From: Spirochaetaceae bacterium | GTDB lineage: Bacteria > Spirochaetota > Spirochaetia > SZUA-6 > Bin103 | Length of the DNA: 36,611 nt | Reading direction: 5' to 3' | NCBI GenBank assembly: GCA_028821475.1 | Contig: JAPPGB010000136.1 | Span: 1 to 36,611, forward strand | In this document: positions 4,274-33,917 of the stretch, piece after piece | Layout of the letters: each line of letters begins with the position of its first letter | Numbering within the stretch: position 1 is the stretch's first letter | The notes under the pieces: model-generated | Seen by the model: the letters and a program-made list of their open reading frames with translations, nothing else | Database searches by the model: none | Told to the model about the DNA's origin: nothing | Translations under genes and position numbers: made by a program

Positions 4274-4582
4274 ATGGCCAGCCCGCCGCTCGTTCCCGCC
4301 AAGGTCGACTACCCCTCATCCGACGGCAAGCCGATGGCGGAAAGCGACTTCCAACGCACCCCCCTGACCTACGCCGTCGACCGGCTGCGGCAGCACTTTC
4401 GCAGCCGGCGGGACGTGTACGTGTCCGGCAACCTGCTGCTGTACTACCAGGAGGGCAATCCGCGGGCGGCGGTGGCGCCGAGTACAACGACCATTCGAGA
4501 AGGCCGGAGTTTCCGGCCCAAGAAATACACGGGCAACGGGACCCGGTCCCGACCCCTAAAACGGGGAGGAGTTACGCTATGA
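4274..4582 (+). pseudogene. Uma2-family nuclease gene truncated and fused to a transporter leader
   Basis: The first about 69 codons (MASPPLVPAKVDYPSSDGKP onward to NPRAAVAP) match the start of the full-length Uma2 protein at 22669-23409 with few changes, including about 50 bp of upstream DNA with the GGAGGA ribosome site. At about 4481 homology stops and the sequence becomes the conserved leader of the peptide-binding-protein operons. The reading frame stays open through that leader and ends in TGA at 4580-4582, overlapping the ATG of the binding protein at 4579 (ATGA). The catalytic half of the nuclease is gone. Confidence 0.8.
4481..4578 (+). repeat. Leader repeat, copy A (3' part only)
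   Basis: Only the last about 98 nt of the operon leader seen at 14306, 23782, 26942 and 33529 are present. They contain a perfect hairpin, GGCCGGA/TCCGGCC with loop GTT, at 4502-4518, a second one, CGGGACC/GGTCCCG, at 4537-4551, and a GGGGAGGAG ribosome site. The promoter and upstream part of the leader are missing, replaced by the Uma2 fragment. Confidence 0.8.
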
Positions 4583-14263: not shown

Positions 14264-14277
14264 CGCAAAACGCGTAC

Positions 14278-14305
14278 TTGACGGATGCCGGCGGTGTGGT
14301 AGAGT
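14278..14305 (+). promoter_or_regulatory. Promoter of binding-protein operon B
   Basis: TTGACG (14278-14283), a 16-nt spacer and TAGAGT (14300-14305). The same boxes with the same spacing occur at three other operon leaders, with the -10 varying between TAGAGT and TAAAGT. Transcription would start near 14312, about 310 nt before the binding-protein ATG. Confidence 0.75.
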
Positions 14306-14623
14306 GATGGCTCCGGGAGGAGGACAAGCGAGGATGATGCGCGATCACACGGCCCTCCGCAGCCGTTCCGTTCGCTGCAGACGCCAGCGCTCCGTCCTGC
14401 TCCGTCCTGCTCCGCTACAAACCAAGCACTCGGTAACTGACCGCTCTTTCCGCTCACCAATCCGCATCCACCGCTCTGCCGCCATCTGCGCCGCTGGTGA
14501 GGTAGCGGCTCCCACTATCCCGCGACGCGACTACAAGGACCATTCGAGAGGGCCGGAGTGTCCGGCCCAAAACCACGGGCAACGGGAAGCACTCCCGTCC
14601 CGAAAACGAGGAGGAGTTCCGTT
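14306..14623 (+). repeat. Leader repeat, copy B, with upstream ORF
   Basis: This is a long untranslated leader shared with copies C, D and E. GGGAGGAGG precedes ATGATG at 14334-14339, and the uORF stays open for about 96 codons until TGA 14625-14627, overlapping the binding-protein ATG 14624 as ATGA. It holds about two units of the 10-nt tandem repeat CCGTCCTGCT. A perfect stem, GGCCGGA-GTG-TCCGGCC, lies at 14551-14567, followed by a CGGGA/TCCCG stem and the ribosome site GAGGAGG. The uORF product is very basic and matches nothing I know. Confidence 0.75.
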
Positions 14624-16414
14624 ATGACTCCAAGACTCACGTTGCTGCCACTGGCGTTCGCGCTGGTGGCTACCGTTACGTTCGCCAGCCCCGCCGGCGA
14701 AGATGACACCGCCGCCGCCACCGAGAAGGAGATGGTCCGCGACCCGGCCACCGGCAAGATAGTAACCGCGCCCGAGTATGGCGGCACCATCACCCTCGGC
14801 TCGGCCCACGAGCCGCCCAACGCCGATCCCGGGCAAGGGCACCCGGGTCAGTTTATATTTGGGTTCACGAACGAGAAGCTGGGCTTCGCCGACTGGGCGA
14901 TAGACAGGCAGAGATTCAGTTTCGATAGCCAGTGGGTCCCTGACTTCGCCGTCACCGGTCAGTTGGCCGAAAGCTGGGAACAGACCGACCCGGTGACCTA
15001 CACGGTCCGCATCCGCGACGGCGTGCACTGGCATGACAAGGCACCGATGAACGGTCGCGAGCTCACCGCCAAGGATGTGGAATACAACTGGCACCGCTAT
15101 CTGGGCCTGGGCAGTGGTTACACCGAAGTCAACCCCTTCGTGGCGCAGTGGTCGCAGCTCGACGACGTAGGCATCGAGTCGGTAACAGCTAACGACGACC
15201 GCACGGTCGTCTTTAAGCTGAAATCGCCCAATCTCGCCGCGGAGCGGACGATCATCTATCAGTACAGCAGTTACATCATGCCGCCAGAGGTCATCGAAGA
15301 GCACGGCGACCTTCTGGATTGGCGCAACCTGGTCGGCACCGGACCCTATGAGCTGGTCGACTGGGTCGAGGGAAGCTCCCTGAGCTACACCAAGAACCCC
15401 AACTACTGGGCGTTCGACGAGAAGTACCCGGACAACCGCCTGCCCTATATCGACGAGATCGTGTGGTTGGTCATGCCCGATGAGTCGACGCGGCTGGCAG
15501 CATTCCGCTCGGGCCAGATCGACTACCTGGGTTCGGTTACGCTGTCGCACATAGCCAGTCTCGACGTACTCGAGGATCTCAGGCGGACCAATCCCGACAT
15601 CCAGGTCTCCCAGTATTACGAGAGCGGGATAGGTCTTGCGATGAATCTCGCCGTGGAGCCGACCAACGACATCAGAGTGCGCCACGCGATCCAGATGGCA
15701 CTCGATGTGGAAGCGATCAACGATTCCTACTGGCAGGGCACGGGAAGAACGACGCCTGAGGCCTACACAGCGATCGACATCGTCGGGTATTCACCCCCGT
15801 TCGACGAGTGGCCAGAGGAGATCAAGAAGTTCTACCGGTACAACCCGGCCGAGGCAGAGAAGCTCCTCGACGACGCCGGCTACCCGCGCGGTGCCGATGG
15901 TATCAGGTTCAAGACCAACATCGAGTTTAGAGATGTCTACGACATAAACAAGTTCGAGATCTTGGCGGAGCAGCTCTTGGAGATTGGCGTCGACGTCGAC
16001 CTCCAGATCATGACTACGGCTGACTGGGCTGATGGGATACAGAATCATGATTACCAAAGCATGACCGCCGCTCCACAGGGAAATCCGTGGGGTATTCTTG
16101 CTCCGTTGGCGCACAGCGTCTCGACTTCGGGATGGAACCCCGCAGGCGTGTCGAACGCAGAGTATGATGCTCTGATTCAGGTCGCCCAAAACGCGTCTAC
16201 CGTCGAGGAGCAGCAGAAGGCTTCGCAGGAGGCGCTCCTGCTTATGTTACGGGACCATTACTACGTGTGGGCTGGCAAGGGACCGAATTTCAATGTGAAT
16301 CAGCCCTGGGTCAAGGGTTTCAACGGCGAGTTTACGTTGGGACATACTATGCGCGCAGGCGTCGTGACGCGTCTCTGGCTCGACCTCGATCTGAAGAAAT
16401 CGATGGGGTTCTGA
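14624..16414 (+). CDS. Peptide-type ABC transporter solute-binding protein (family 5), operon B
   Basis: The product has 596 aa from ATG 14624, preceded by GAGGAGG. The frame extends upstream, but the signal peptide (MTPRLTLLPLAFALVATVTF) marks the start. There is no lipobox Cys, so it is a soluble periplasmic protein. The mature part begins with EKEMVRDPATGKIVTAPEYG, as in all copies. Family-5 features are VGTGPYELVDWVEG, KNPNYWAFDEKYP, DIRVRHAIQMALD and the C-terminal QPWVKGFNGEF. It is closely similar to the protein at 4579-6360 and to the remnants at 8129 and 24140. It is the only binding protein of its subfamily followed by two intact permeases here. Confidence 0.94.
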   Translation: MTPRLTLLPLAFALVATVTFASPAGEDDTAAATEKEMVRDPATGKIVTAPEYGGTITLGSAHEPPNADPGQGHPGQFIFGFTNEKLGFADWAIDRQRFSFDSQWVPDFAVTGQLAESWEQTDPVTYTVRIRDGVHWHDKAPMNGRELTAKDVEYNWHRYLGLGSGYTEVNPFVAQWSQLDDVGIESVTANDDRTVVFKLKSPNLAAERTIIYQYSSYIMPPEVIEEHGDLLDWRNLVGTGPYELVDWVEGSSLSYTKNPNYWAFDEKYPDNRLPYIDEIVWLVMPDESTRLAAFRSGQIDYLGSVTLSHIASLDVLEDLRRTNPDIQVSQYYESGIGLAMNLAVEPTNDIRVRHAIQMALDVEAINDSYWQGTGRTTPEAYTAIDIVGYSPPFDEWPEEIKKFYRYNPAEAEKLLDDAGYPRGADGIRFKTNIEFRDVYDINKFEILAEQLLEIGVDVDLQIMTTADWADGIQNHDYQSMTAAPQGNPWGILAPLAHSVSTSGWNPAGVSNAEYDALIQVAQNASTVEEQQKASQEALLLMLRDHYYVWAGKGPNFNVNQPWVKGFNGEFTLGHTMRAGVVTRLWLDLDLKKSMGF

Positions 16415-23693: not shown

Positions 23694-23745
23694 CGAATGA
23701 ACTTCGTGGACACCGCGGCCGGCTACGAGGACGGCAACCCGCCAA
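23694..23745 (+). pseudogene. Possible scrap of an aldo/keto reductase gene
   Basis: MNFVDTAAGYEDGN resembles the DTAxxYGxG catalytic segment of aldo/keto reductases. Only about 15 codons are seen, so this is weak. Confidence 0.25.
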
Positions 23746-23753
23746 ACGTGAGC

Positions 23754-23781
23754 TTGACGGATGCCGGGCGTGTGGTAGAGT
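23754..23781 (+). promoter_or_regulatory. Promoter of leader copy C
   Basis: TTGACG (23754-23759), a 16-nt spacer, TAGAGT (23776-23781); the same arrangement as at 14278. Confidence 0.72.
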
Positions 23782-24139
23782 GATGGCTCCGGGAGGAGCA
23801 CAACCGCGGATGAAGCGCGATCACACAGCCCGCCGCGGCCGTCCGTTCGCTGCAAGCGCCAGTGCTCCGTCCTGCTCCGTCAACAAACCAAGCACTCGGA
23901 AACTGACCGCTCTTTCCGCTCACCGAGCCGCATCCACCACTCTGCCGTCATCTGCGCCGCTGACGACCTATCCGCTCCCGTTCATATCCACACCCATCGC
24001 ACCACGCTCATCCGATGCGGCGCTCGCGGCGCCCTTGGGTGCAACGACTACCAGGACCATTCGAGAAGGCCGGAGTTCCGGCCCAAGACCACGGGTACCG
24101 GGACCCAGTCCCGCTCCCAAGAACGAGGAGGAGTACGCT
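23782..24139 (+). repeat. Leader repeat, copy C
   Basis: The leader is about 350 nt, closely matching copies D and E. GGGAGGAG precedes uORF ATG 23810. Here the uORF reads in frame straight through the leader into the gutted binding-protein gene and the small gene after it, ending at 24736. The hairpin GGCCGGA-GT-TCCGGCC lies at 24068-24083, one base shorter in the loop than in the other copies. The 10-nt tandem unit is present once. Confidence 0.75.
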
Positions 24140-24457
24140 ATGCAGCTCGACGACATCGGCATCGAATCGGTAACGGCCACCGACGACCATACGGTCGTCT
24201 TTCGGCTAAAGGAGCCCAATTTCGCCGCGGAGCGGACGATCCTCTACCATTACACCAGTAACATCATGCCGCCAGAGGTCATCGAAGAGCACGGCGACCT
24301 CTTGGATTGGCGCAACCTGGTTGGCACCGGCCCCTATGAGCTGGTCGACTGGGTCGAGGGCAGCTCCCTGAGCTACACCAAGAACCCCAACTACTGGGCG
24401 TTCGACGAGAAGTACCCGGACAATCGCCTGCCCTATATCGACGAGATCGTGTGGTTG
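24140..24457 (+). pseudogene. Internal fragment of a family-5 binding-protein gene placed after a normal leader
   Basis: After the ribosome site and ATG 24140 the sequence is QLDDIGIESVTATDDHTVVF to LPYIDEIVWL, corresponding to about residues 180-285 of the protein at 14624. The first about 180 codons, including the signal peptide, and the last 310 are missing. The deletion joins precisely at the ATG. At 24457 the fragment meets unrelated DNA. Confidence 0.88.
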
Positions 24458-24483
24458 TCGGACCTGATCGGAACCCGTACACT
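24455..24483 (+). promoter_or_regulatory. Promoter of the small gene at 24491 (predicted leaderless)
   Basis: TTGTCG (24455-24460), a 17-nt spacer and TACACT (24478-24483) lie 7 nt before ATG 24491. The -35 box straddles the join between the binding-protein fragment and the new DNA. Confidence 0.5.
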
Positions 24484-24490
24484 GCCTCTC

Positions 24491-24736
24491 ATGGCGGGCG
24501 ATCTTGACGGCGAAATGCGCGGGTTCGTCGAACGGTGGCGTGTCGCCGGTGCCAGGCTGGCGGCGCTGAGACGGTCCGAACTCCGCGATGTCGAGGTGGC
24601 CGACCACATCGATGCACTTGATGGTGCGTTCGAAGCGACGCTCGCGGGTCCGGTGCGCACCACCTCCGGGCTGGTGCAGCAGCAGGCGATGTTTGCCAGA
24701 ATCCGGGATGCGCGACCTCTTTCGCCTGGCGAATGA
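24491..24736 (+). CDS. Small conserved-type protein next to a nucleotidyltransferase remnant
   Basis: The product has 81 aa, predicted helical: MAGDLDGEMRGFVERWRVAG, LRRSELRDVEVADHIDALDG and TSGLVQQQAMFARI. I recognise the TSGLVxxQxxF pattern from small uncharacterised proteins encoded beside nucleotidyltransferases, but give it no function. ATG 24491 is supported by the promoter 7 nt upstream. The last residues (RDARPLSPGE) lie over the truncated partner gene and may not be native. It also sits in frame with the leader uORF, so a long fusion product is conceivable. Confidence 0.5.
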   Translation: MAGDLDGEMRGFVERWRVAGARLAALRRSELRDVEVADHIDALDGAFEATLAGPVRTTSGLVQQQAMFARIRDARPLSPGE

Positions 24737-25874: not shown

Positions 25875-26681
25875 ATGTGTTTTCCGACAGTCGGCTGCCC
25901 TGTCTGCGCGGATACGGTCGCGTACGCCGTCGTCAACGCCACGACAACCATCACCTCACGCACCTCACGCGAGGCGCTACCGCCCCGCAAGTGGAGCAAG
26001 AGCGACACGGCGGACCCGGTGTTGCACGTGGTCGTGTACAATGGTGATAGACGGTGGGACGCGCCGGTGACGTTCGCCGGGCTGGTGGCGAGGACGGAGG
26101 AGGACGGCGCCGCGCATCTCGGGCTGAGGTACGAGGTGCTTGATCTGGTGGCGGTGAGAGGGGATGATCTGCCACGGACGAACCTGCTACGGTGGGTGGC
26201 GGAAGTGGAGCAGAGTGTGCAGGCCCGCACTCTGCCGGAGCGGGTGAGGGAGTTGGGTGAATGGCTCGCCGAGGCTGGCGAGCCGGGGCTGACGAGAACC
26301 TTCGACCTGTGGCTCGGCGCCCTGGGGCGGAAGTGGGGCGTGGAGTTGCCATCGATCCGCGAGTACGAGGAGGCAAGCGCAGTGTTGGCCGAAAAGATTG
26401 ACCGCTGGGGAGCGGAAATCCTGGAGCAGGGTATCGAGCAGGGCATTGAGCAGGGTATCCAGCAGGGCGTCGAGCGGGGTATCGAACAGGGCATCGAGCG
26501 GCAGAAGGCGTTGTTGCGCCGCCTGGCGGAGCGGCGGTTCGGCCCAGCGGCGGCGGAGCGGCTGGCGACGGAGCTTGCTGAAGTGACGGACGCGGATCGT
26601 CTCGCCGAAACCGGGGAGTGGATCGTGGACTGCGCCACGACTGCCGAATTCCTTGCGCGCATGGATCGCTGCGGCTCGTAG
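25875..26681 (+). pseudogene. Rpn/PD-(D/E)XK-type recombination-promoting nuclease-like gene, N-terminus lost
   Basis: The open frame gives 268 aa, but only residues from about 45 on look like a protein family. VLHVVVYNGDRRWDAPVTFA is the strand and YNG motif that follows the nuclease core in Rpn-like proteins. A middle helical region and a run of GIEQ/GVER repeats (ILEQGIEQGIEQGIQQGVER) precede the C-terminal ALLRRLAERRFGPAAAERL, a DUF4351-like end. The catalytic N-terminal domain (about 100 residues) is missing and replaced by unrelated codons. The repeated 12-nt units at about 26423-26500 could vary in number by slippage. Confidence 0.6.
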
Positions 26682-26913: not shown

Positions 26914-26941
26914 TTGACGGTTGCCGAGCGTGTGATAAAGT
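26914..26941 (+). promoter_or_regulatory. Promoter of binding-protein operon D
   Basis: TTGACG (26914-26919), a 16-nt spacer, TAAAGT (26936-26941). The 230 bp before it (26682-26913) hold no gene or fragment that I recognise. Confidence 0.75.
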
Positions 26942-27299
26942 GATGGGCTCCGGGAGGAGGACAAGTGCGGATGAAGCGCGATTATACAGCCCGCCGCAGC
27001 CGTCCATTCGCTGCAAGCGCCAGCGCTCCGTCCTGCTCACAAACCAAGCACCCGGTAACTGACCGTTCGCTCCGCTCACCGAGCCACGTCCACCACTCTG
27101 TCGCCGTCCGCGCCGCTAACGACGTAGCGGCTCCCGTTCATATCCACACCCATCGCACCACTCTCATCCGAGGCGGCGCTCGCAGCGCCCTTGGGTGCGA
27201 CGACTACCAGGACCATTCGAGGAGGCCGGCGTTTCCGGCCCAAGAAAAGCACGGGCAACGGGACGCAGTCCCGGTCCCGAAAACAAGGAGGAGTACGTT
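26942..27299 (+). repeat. Leader repeat, copy D, with upstream ORF
   Basis: GGGAGGAGG precedes uORF ATG 26971. The uORF runs 110 codons (MKRDYTARRSRPFAASASAP onward) to TGA 27301-27303, overlapping the binding-protein ATG 27300 as ATGA. It has one 10-nt tandem unit. The stem GGCCGG-CGTTT-CCGGCC lies at 27224-27240, followed by the ribosome site AAGGAGG. Confidence 0.75.
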
Positions 27300-29087
27300 A
27301 TGACTCCACGACTCATGTTGTTGCCGCTGGCGTTCGCGCTGGTGGCTACCGTTACGTTCGCCGCCGCCGAGGGCGAGGAAGCATCCGCGGCCGAGAAGGA
27401 GATGGTGCTCGACCCGAGCACCGGCGAGATGGTGACCGCGCCCGAGTATGGCGGCACGATCAGGGCGGTCATCAACTTCAAGCCGGAGGGGATCGACCCC
27501 TATTTCCGCTACTCCGCGGGAGCCTTCATCGGGCTGGTCAACGAGAAGCTCGGCGTGGGCGACTGGGCGATCGACCGGAGCAAGGTCGGCTACACTACGC
27601 TGTTCCTGCCCGACGAGGCCCTCGTCGGACAACTGGCCGAGAGCTGGGAGAGGCCGGATCCGCTCACCGCCGTGTTCAAGATCCGCGACGGCGTGTTCTG
27701 GCACGACAAGGCGCCGGTGAACGGCCGGCAGCTCACCGCGCACGATGTCGCCTACAGTTGGCAGCGGCTCCTGTTCGGGGTGGACGGCGGCGAGCCGAGC
27801 CCGGACTGCCCGGGGGGCTTCGATATCTGCAACATAAAGTGGGAATCGGTTGCCGCTACCGACGATTCGACGGTGGTATTCAAGCTGCAGGAGCCCAGTG
27901 TCACCGCGTTCAGCCGCATGCTCGTGGCAGAGCATGGCTACATCGTCGCCCGCGAGGTGGTCGATGAGTTCGGAGACATTCAGGACTGGCGCAACGTGAC
28001 CGGAACGGGCCCCTTTCAACTGACCGACGTGGTGGAGGGCAGCTCCTGGACCTACACCAAGATCGACGATTATTGGGGTTTCGACCCGAAATTCCCGGAC
28101 AACCGTTTGCCCTACGCGGACACCATCGAGTTCCTGGTCGTCAACGACATGACAGCCATCACCTCACTGATGCGCTCCGGACAGGCGGACTGGATTGGAT
28201 TCGGACTCAACTCCCATCTCACCAGTGTCGACTCGGCGGTCAATCTGCAGAAGACCAAACCCGACCTGGTGCTGCACCCGTATTCCTACCGGTCGGAGAC
28301 CGCGTTCGGTTTCAACCTCCAGAAGGAGCCCTGGAGCGACATCCGCGTGCGCCAGGCCCTCAGCCTGGCCATCGACCACGAGTCGATCGCCGAGAATTAC
28401 CAGCAGGGTTGGGGCGATGCAAGCCCGCAAGGGGCCACCGGCGCCAGGGTGCTCGGGTATGCCGTCCCGTTCGAGGAGTGGCCCGAGGAGACCCAGCAAT
28501 ACTATCGGTACGACCCCGAGGAAGCCGAGAGGCTGCTCGACGAGGCCGGCTATCCGCGCGGTGAAGACGGCATCCGGTTCAGCACCATCTATTCGCACTA
28601 CGAGTTCTTCGACCTCGGCTACTACCAGATCGCCATGGATTACCTCCGGCAGATCGGCATCGACGTCGAGATCGAGGAAATAACTCGCGCGCAGAATAGC
28701 GAGTGGGGCATGAGCCACGGATATCCAGGCTTGCGCACCGACGTATGGGCTGCCGAGTATCCCAGTGGCCTTGCCCCGATAAACTCTTACTGGTCGAAAG
28801 CCGGCTGGAACCCCAACAACAACAACGACCCGGTATTCGACGAAATCTACGAGAAAGCGCTGGCCGCCACCACGGTAGAGGAGCAGCAGGAGTGGGCGCG
28901 GCAGGCCAACCTGCGCATCGCCGAGCAACTGTGGATGATAAGGGGGCCGGTTGCTCCCCTGTTCGGCGCCACCCAGCCGTGGATCAAGGGCTACAACGGG
29001 GAAGGCGATGTCGGCGGGATGCAACGGTCCACCGTCCTCATGTACCTGTGGGTGGACCAGGATCTGAAGCGGGAGCTGGGCTCTTAG
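27300..29087 (+). CDS. Peptide-type ABC transporter solute-binding protein (family 5), operon D
   Basis: The product has 595 aa from ATG 27300. The signal peptide is MTPRLMLLPLAFALVATVTF, with no lipobox Cys. The mature start EKEMVLDPSTGEMVTAPEYG is shared by all copies. Family-5 motifs are GTGPFQLTDVVEGSSWTYTK, DDYWGFDPKFPDNRLPYAD and DIRVRQALSLAIDHESIAE. It belongs with 33918-35693 in a second subfamily; the ligand-facing middle part differs clearly from the operon A/B proteins, so a different substrate range is likely (inference). It is followed by two intact permeases and is transcribed from 26914 with a long leader. Confidence 0.94.
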   Translation: MTPRLMLLPLAFALVATVTFAAAEGEEASAAEKEMVLDPSTGEMVTAPEYGGTIRAVINFKPEGIDPYFRYSAGAFIGLVNEKLGVGDWAIDRSKVGYTTLFLPDEALVGQLAESWERPDPLTAVFKIRDGVFWHDKAPVNGRQLTAHDVAYSWQRLLFGVDGGEPSPDCPGGFDICNIKWESVAATDDSTVVFKLQEPSVTAFSRMLVAEHGYIVAREVVDEFGDIQDWRNVTGTGPFQLTDVVEGSSWTYTKIDDYWGFDPKFPDNRLPYADTIEFLVVNDMTAITSLMRSGQADWIGFGLNSHLTSVDSAVNLQKTKPDLVLHPYSYRSETAFGFNLQKEPWSDIRVRQALSLAIDHESIAENYQQGWGDASPQGATGARVLGYAVPFEEWPEETQQYYRYDPEEAERLLDEAGYPRGEDGIRFSTIYSHYEFFDLGYYQIAMDYLRQIGIDVEIEEITRAQNSEWGMSHGYPGLRTDVWAAEYPSGLAPINSYWSKAGWNPNNNNDPVFDEIYEKALAATTVEEQQEWARQANLRIAEQLWMIRGPVAPLFGATQPWIKGYNGEGDVGGMQRSTVLMYLWVDQDLKRELGS

Positions 29088-33480: not shown

Positions 33481-33500
33481 ACCCGGCCAAACGCGTGCAC

Positions 33501-33528
33501 TTGACGGATGCCGGACTGGTGGTAAAGT
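33501..33528 (+). promoter_or_regulatory. Promoter of binding-protein operon E
   Basis: TTGACG (33501-33506), a 16-nt spacer, TAAAGT (33523-33528), as at the other leaders. Confidence 0.75.
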
Positions 33529-33917
33529 GATGGCTCCGGGAGGAGGACAAGCGCGGATGAAGCGCGATCACACAGCCCGCCGCCGCCCGTTCGCTGCAAG
33601 CGCTAGCGCTCCGTCCTGCTCCGTCCTGCTCCGTCCTGCTCCGTCCTGCTCCGTCCGTCGAAAACCAAGCACTCGGTAACTGACCGTTCTCTACGCTCAC
33701 CGAGCCACGTCCACCGCTCTGCCGCCATCCGCGCCGCTGACGACGTAGCGGCTCCCGTTCATATCCACACCCATCGCACCACGCTCATCCGAGGCGGCGC
33801 TCGCGGCGCCTTTGGGTGCGACGACTACCATGACCATTCCAGAAGGCCGGAGTTTCCGGCCCAAGACCACGGGTTCCGGGGCGCAGTCCCGTTCCCGACA
33901 ACGAGGAGGAGTACGTC
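33529..33917 (+). repeat. Leader repeat, copy E, with upstream ORF
   Basis: GGGAGGAGG (33538-33546) precedes uORF ATG 33557. Here the uORF stops after 40 codons at TAA 33677-33679. The frame that reaches the binding-protein ATG as ATGA in copies B and D is also open in this leader, but is out of phase with this ATG. The hairpin GGCCGGA-GTT-TCCGGCC lies at 33845-33861, and the ribosome site is GAGGAGG. Confidence 0.75.
33611..33656 (+). repeat. 10-nt tandem repeat inside the leader uORF
   Basis: CCGTCCTGCT is repeated four times exactly (33611-33650), plus a partial unit. Copy B has about two units; copies C and D have one. Because 10 is not a multiple of 3, each unit gained or lost changes the uORF frame. 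Confidence 0.9.

Follow-up and report, generated by a model that had tools for sequence, protein, structure and literature searches.

Several described systems share single features with the leader family analyzed here. In the available text on the Escherichia coli mdtUJI leader (PMC7815308), a long transporter leader carries a short upstream open reading frame (uORF) near the 5' end, a long stretch from the uORF stop to the gene, and, as Rho loading would require, sequence rich in C and poor in G, all of which recur in our leaders. However, that text describes mdtU as having a conserved C-terminus and a spermidine response, whereas the end of the uORF studied here varies with a tandem array. 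Termination-reinitiation systems, as covered in the accessible part of PMC6728339, resemble this locus in the ATGA stop/start overlap seen in some copies, in the Shine-Dalgarno (SD) sequence before the start and in the local structure around it; their upstream ORF is a real gene, while ours is a leader frame, mostly without amino-acid selection, that is in phase in some copies. The G-repeat of Helicobacter tlpB, the target of RepG, is likewise a length-variable repeat in the mRNA leader upstream of a gene, but it is described in PMC8295292 as a homopolymer acting with a trans-acting sRNA, in contrast to the 10-nt unit inside a uORF here. Finally, the heptamer TAACTGA in an intergenic leader recalls the Beggiatoaceae (PMC4679880, accessible text), where it forms direct repeats; here it is single, lies far from the start codon and differs from the repeated unit.

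A literature search (subscription papers and preprints lay outside its scope) brought up leader repeats, leaders that combine a uORF with Rho, and coupling at ATGA as separate topics, and no account of the present leader family. We favour, with a probability of about 0.58, the reading that it is a duplicated C-rich, hairpin-bearing transporter leader with a slippage-prone array, possibly Rho-sensitive, in which the uORF and its ATGA ending are mostly by-products.

Distribution and anatomy of the leader family

The analyzed window, a stretch of 36,611 nt, is one contig (JAPPGB010000136.1, our C136) of a 5.73-Mb Spirochaetaceae genome (GCA_028821475.1, G000), and peptide-type ABC operons are repeated across it. 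A full leader precedes four of these operons (copies B, C, D and E), and two more full copies are found elsewhere in the same genome (F on contig C174, G on contig C62). Together with three copies (H, I and J) in the genome of a sister species, G001, nine full leaders were identified. G001 is apparently Spirochaetaceae bacterium bin103, as its leader match coincides with MPNH01000025.1; the available text of PMC5649159 gives the sponge Aplysina aerophoba as the source of bin103. A promoter-like block can be aligned across all nine leaders, and genes of the SBP_bac_5 type, encoding solute-binding proteins (SBPs), lie downstream of each of them, copy C having a remnant only. In J, the binding-protein start is located more than 100 nt past the uORF stop. 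The features in the window are listed in Table 1.

Table 1. Leader copies in the window and features of copy D (positions count from the first letter of the window).
Feature	Position	Strand	Details
Copy A, 3' leader end only (H1, H2, SD), uORF absent	4475..4578	+	intact SBP ORF downstream
Copy B leader	14269..14623	+	uORF 14334-14627, array 14389-14414
Copy C leader, uATG 23810	23745..24139	+	in frame with truncated SBP remnant
Copy D promoter-like TTGACG-16-TAAAGT	26914..26941	+	1 found vs mean 0 in shuffles
Copy D uORF SD-like GGGAGGAGGAC	26952..26962	+	read in sequence
Copy D uORF, 110 codons, ATG 26971	26971..27303	+	stop TGA 27301-27303 within ATGA of SBP start
Copy D single perfect unit CTCCGTCCTG	27026..27035	+	read as CCGTCCTGCT: 27028-27037
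TAACTGA, stop codons in both other phases	27056..27062	+	(nearly) conserved in most copies; altered in C, H, I, J
Hairpin H1, GGCCGG/CCGGCC in copy D	27224..27240	+	2 pairs changed on both sides, kept in other copies
Hairpin H2, GGG/CCC outer and CGGGAC/GTCCCG inner	27253..27278	+	1 pair changed on both sides, kept
Copy D binding-protein SD AAGGAGGAG	27285..27293	+	read in sequence
Copy D solute-binding protein (SBP_bac_5), ATG ACT start	27300..29087	+	profile match E 5.5e-67
Copy E leader	33490..33917	+	uORF 33557-33679, 40 codons; array 33608-33656

Much of this anatomy had been noticed in a first-pass annotation of the window made from the DNA letters alone. The basic, SD-preceded uORF in front of the SBP gene is indeed present in B, C, D and E, together with a promoter-like site upstream, and the uORF lengths given for B, D and E (96, 110 and 40 codons) were recovered, B extending to 97 codons from its first ATG. 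The annotation had also read copy C in frame into the downstream gene: the frame is as described, yet what follows is a truncated SBP. Specifically, in copy C (23745-24736) the leader start codon is joined to mid-gene sequence of a binding protein, leaving a 198-aa remnant from the ATG. Just upstream of copy D lies a YhgA-like putative transposase (25875-26681; Transposase_31, E 1.2e-4), in which positions 26424-26499 form a 12/24-nt tandem repeat.

In the three genomes of the genus that were searched, TGCTCCGTCCTGCTCCG, the exact sequence of the array, is confined to full leaders. Among 26 genomes of the order, leader matches came from G000 and G001, and G008 gave a single match of 28 nt (E 0.004); no copy was found in G002, a genome of the same genus that is 81% complete. 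Outside the genus, blastn returned no relative of the leader among plasmids and phages, and an array 20-mer had 0 matches to viral contigs. Rfam covariance models gave 0 matches in the window at the gathering score and 0 between 26890 and 27340 at E up to 1, while the uORF product matched no protein family in Pfam (copy D) or NCBIfam (copies B and D). The SBP_bac_5 profile (PF00496) has, at E up to 1e-10, 111 matches in G000 and 95 in G001, against 6 in G002 and 22 in G003, a genome of the same family; peptide-type binding proteins thus represent a very large expansion in G000 and G001.

Array length and reading phase

Perfect units of CCGTCCTGCT number 2, 1, 1 and 4 in B, C, D and E, exactly as first annotated. 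Across all full leaders, CTCCGTCCTG is present once in D, C and I, twice in B, F and H, four times in E, six times in G and eleven times in J; the array of H consists throughout of one unit variant, CTCCGGCCTG. Within the window, only B and E have 10-nt arrays of the leader unit according to Tandem Repeats Finder. A comparison of unit numbers among strains had been suggested as a check, and between the two species two orthologous leader pairs do differ, with 1 versus 2 and 6 versus 1 units. The array probably drifts by slippage, which we infer to be the mutational cause. As had also been proposed, small indels co-determine the frame: those in the 5' part amount to +1 in B and -3 in E, and the linker behind the array measures 8, 12, 13 or 16 nt across B, C, D and E. 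Divided by 3, the distance from the uORF ATG to an anchor behind the array leaves a remainder of 1 for B, D, G and J, of 0 for C, E and F and of 2 for H and I, so all three phases are present.

These observations are the basis of the switch put forward in the first-pass annotation, a phase-variable translational coupling. According to this explanation, ribosomes in one of the three phases would reach the ATGA and reinitiate on the SBP gene, opening the hairpin at its SD (GGAGU paired to ACUCC within codons 2-3) on their way, and slippage of the array would shift the phase. The turnover of an array whose unit is not a multiple of three speaks in its favour, and so does TAACTGA behind the array, which closes two of the phases while the third runs to the ATGA. 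The SBP SD is, moreover, partly paired in local folds (unpaired 0.14-0.47). The frame downstream of the array favours it as well. The length from the anchor to the SBP start is 256 nt in D, 253 in E, 202 in B, 247 in F, 265 in G and 271 in H, all equal to 1 modulo 3; I (260) departs from this, as does C (252), the copy with the pseudogene. Keeping the frame in 6/7 intact copies has P of about 0.007 under seven independent trials at one third, a test that is post hoc and applied to related, non-independent copies; J, whose 3' part is unalignable, was omitted from both the indel and the omega counts. This triplet bias of the indels is suggestive as a coding hint.

The ATGA endings of the uORFs in B, D (110 codons) and G (131 codons) also fit coupling; counted from the uORF ATG, those of E, F (33 codons), H (34) and I (32) stop elsewhere, and J has a frame of 145 codons whose stop lies away from its gene. 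Other properties of the copies argue against coupling. Three of seven intact copies are in phase, which with three phases is a chance-like share (P 0.43). G, though in phase, has no uORF SD; this element is also missing in I and is weak in F and H. D's orthologue H is out of phase and stops early with its gene intact. Finally, the SBP gene has its own strong SD, and copies without the uORF keep the same start region.

The ATGA ending and selection on the upstream frame

All seven intact genes with alignable leaders start with ATG ACT. Because the second codon is ACT (Thr), a TGA overlaps the start whatever lies upstream, and ATGA is also found in the uORF-less copies A and C128. For comparison, 60 upstream regions of other SBP genes were fetched, 10 without and 50 with a usable start, of which a survey of arrays and hairpins dropped three whose chosen start was apparently internal. 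ATGA occurs at 26/50 of these starts, and in 3/26 the frame is open for at least 90 codons. An A at the fourth base is common in bacterial genes generally, according to the available text of PMC5850271. At leader composition, the chance of an open frame is 0.11 for 110 codons and 0.14 for 97. As a caution, GC-rich leaders easily yield long uORFs ending in ATGA.

Behind the array, the in-phase frame is free of stops in the eight aligned copies except for a TGA directly before the ATG in H. Compared with a neutral simulation, this absence is not significant (P 0.11-0.20 when six other copies are used, 0.14-0.23 if C is dropped and 0.05-0.11 if I is included), and missing stops were rejected as coding evidence over the whole range of P from 0.05 to 0.23.

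Copies D and H are orthologous (a single 4.3-kb alignment, 88%), and their SBP genes have dN 0.037 and dS 0.271 (NG86). The leaders have diverged at the neutral rate, with a JC distance of 0.257 plus many indels. In a codon model of the 77 codons 3' of the array, fitted to seven copies with C included and I and J left out, omega is 0.94 for the in-phase frame, compared with 0.96 and 1.78 for the remaining two forward frames; pairwise differences at the three codon positions amount to 329, 262 and 314. With the same method, the SBP genes of six copies gave omega 0.23-0.49 in 7/7 windows, and purifying selection on the uORF would therefore have shown. Thus, no protein-level selection was detected 3' of the array, and the main part of the uORF frame evolves neutrally. 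Of the codon-level selection that the first-pass annotation had thought worth looking for, there is a hint only in the first 20 codons (omega 0.37, 2dlnL 5.22, p 0.022, uncorrected; other frames 4.25 and 1.27; B and H masked beyond codon 10). This small signal is the best sign that a short peptide may be made.

An open frame whose amino acids are free to change is, however, what coupling predicts, and the stop-free frame is therefore not dismissed; an omega of 0.94 is compatible with a coupling ORF that is indifferent to its sequence, while the non-significant stop avoidance counts against one. Overall, the variable array, the non-triplet unit and the frame kept downstream give the proposed switch partial support, and we consider the switch itself unlikely.

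Hairpins, base composition and Rho

Conservation in the leader is seen at the promoter, in a stretch rich in C and poor in G, in two hairpins with covarying pairs and at the SD of the gene. RNAalifold places hairpins H1 and H2 just 5' of the SD, and 3/15 pairs are changed on both sides and kept; the alignment holds 11 of the 13 leaders first aligned, C128, in which H1 is missing, and C174b, which has neither SD nor start, being omitted and J never included. Both hairpins also occur in A, C15 and C30, all of which lack the uORF of the full leader.

On the plus strand, the four leaders of the window are the top four 240-nt stretches in excess of C over G, and similar values are reached by stretches of the minus strand; the window maximum (0.242) lies at 26052 on the minus strand, outside the leaders. 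Between positions -240 and -15, the excess averages 0.142 in eight family leaders versus 0.0005 in the 50 other SBP leaders, where p 2e-5 is too strong since the eight are related. Such a composition is not specific to Rho and is no proof of Rho action. Rho itself is encoded in the genome, with two matches to its RNA-binding domain (PF07497), which lie at two separate sites, on contigs C119 and C2 of G000.

A phase-variable Rho attenuator has to be weighed against this background. Here, a stop at TAACTGA in two phases would free about 240 nt of C-rich RNA for termination before the gene, and in the third phase ribosomes would cover the leader. The presence of Rho agrees with this, as does the leader body, which in all nine leaders, the unalignable J included (98.6), lies between the 97.5 and 99.7 percentiles of C over G in the sequence analysed. 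The geometry of the short uORF is like that of mdtU, given in the accessible text of PMC7815308 as 34 codons in a 278-nt Rho-terminated leader. Since the uORF-less SBP leaders L118, L153 and L156 can be C-rich too, and phase conservation was not seen, we hold such an attenuator to be improbable, and we give no more credit to a combined form, in which the array in the basic uORF would decide in each cell, and for each operon separately, if ribosomes cover the leader to the ATGA, and slippage would re-mix, via Rho and coupling, which of its very many peptide-type transporters a sponge symbiont expresses. That the array serves as an RNA anti-SD, its CU-rich units pairing with GA-rich sequence at the SD and start of either uORF or gene and unit number tuning the sequestration, is highly improbable: GUCCUGCUCC is complementary to GGAGGAGGAC at 9/10 positions by inspection, the SD-array pairing predicted for B and E is strong, and only 0.5-3.5% of shuffles reach their duplex energy, but z-scores of the 5' module range from -1.4 to +1.7, and sequestration was rejected as a general feature because 24-100% of shuffles are equal or better in G, I and J.

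Proposed origin and significance

In the favoured reading, that of a duplicated leader with mostly incidental uORFs, a 5' leader of about 350-460 nt has been copied along with operons for peptide-type ABC transporters within a single genus of sponge-associated Spirochaetaceae. The promoter, the C-rich body, the two GC hairpins and the binding-protein SD would be the elements maintained, the hairpins perhaps as pause or stabilising elements, and the array would be a slippage-prone tract within that body. Passage of the uORF and its ATGA ending would mostly follow from a stop-poor leader before a gene with ACT as its second codon. Near the putative transcription start, a short peptide would be translated (32-40 codons in 4/7 copies in which leader and gene are both intact and alignable), and the C-rich RNA that follows may permit Rho action before the gene.

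If the coupling switch were true, nutrient uptake would be phase-variable via an upstream frame, across paralogous operons of one genome. Even without a switch, the leaders differ naturally in unit number (1-11), in phase (all three) and in the presence of SD, uORF or array, and can serve as a test series for when ribosomes or Rho read stop-poor, C-rich leaders.

Leaders that are short or lack the uORF also stand before related genes, a point against coupling. C128 has promoter-like sequence, one hairpin and an SD within about 110 nt, the L111/L152 leader keeps the promoter and GAGGAGGACAAGC with no ATG just behind, and in C44 the leader body is absent. L156 (contig C57 of G001), a C-rich SBP leader without an SD-preceded uORF, contains, about 290-205 nt ahead of its SBP gene, 11.6 tandem copies of CCGCTCA, a 7-nt unit unrelated to the 10-nt one; arrays therefore also arise in SBP leaders that have no such frame to switch.

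Similar hairpins before the SD (GCCGGCGTTGCCGGC or GCCGGTGTTACCGGC), in many cases with a GGGTC-type hairpin behind them, were seen in the other SBP leaders L116, L118, L126, L156, L153 and L173, which hints at what may be a wider leader class. In the apparently orthologous SBP leaders L134 (G000:C172) and L159 (G001:C2), the last 130 nt are nearly identical in the two species and the 5' part has diverged.
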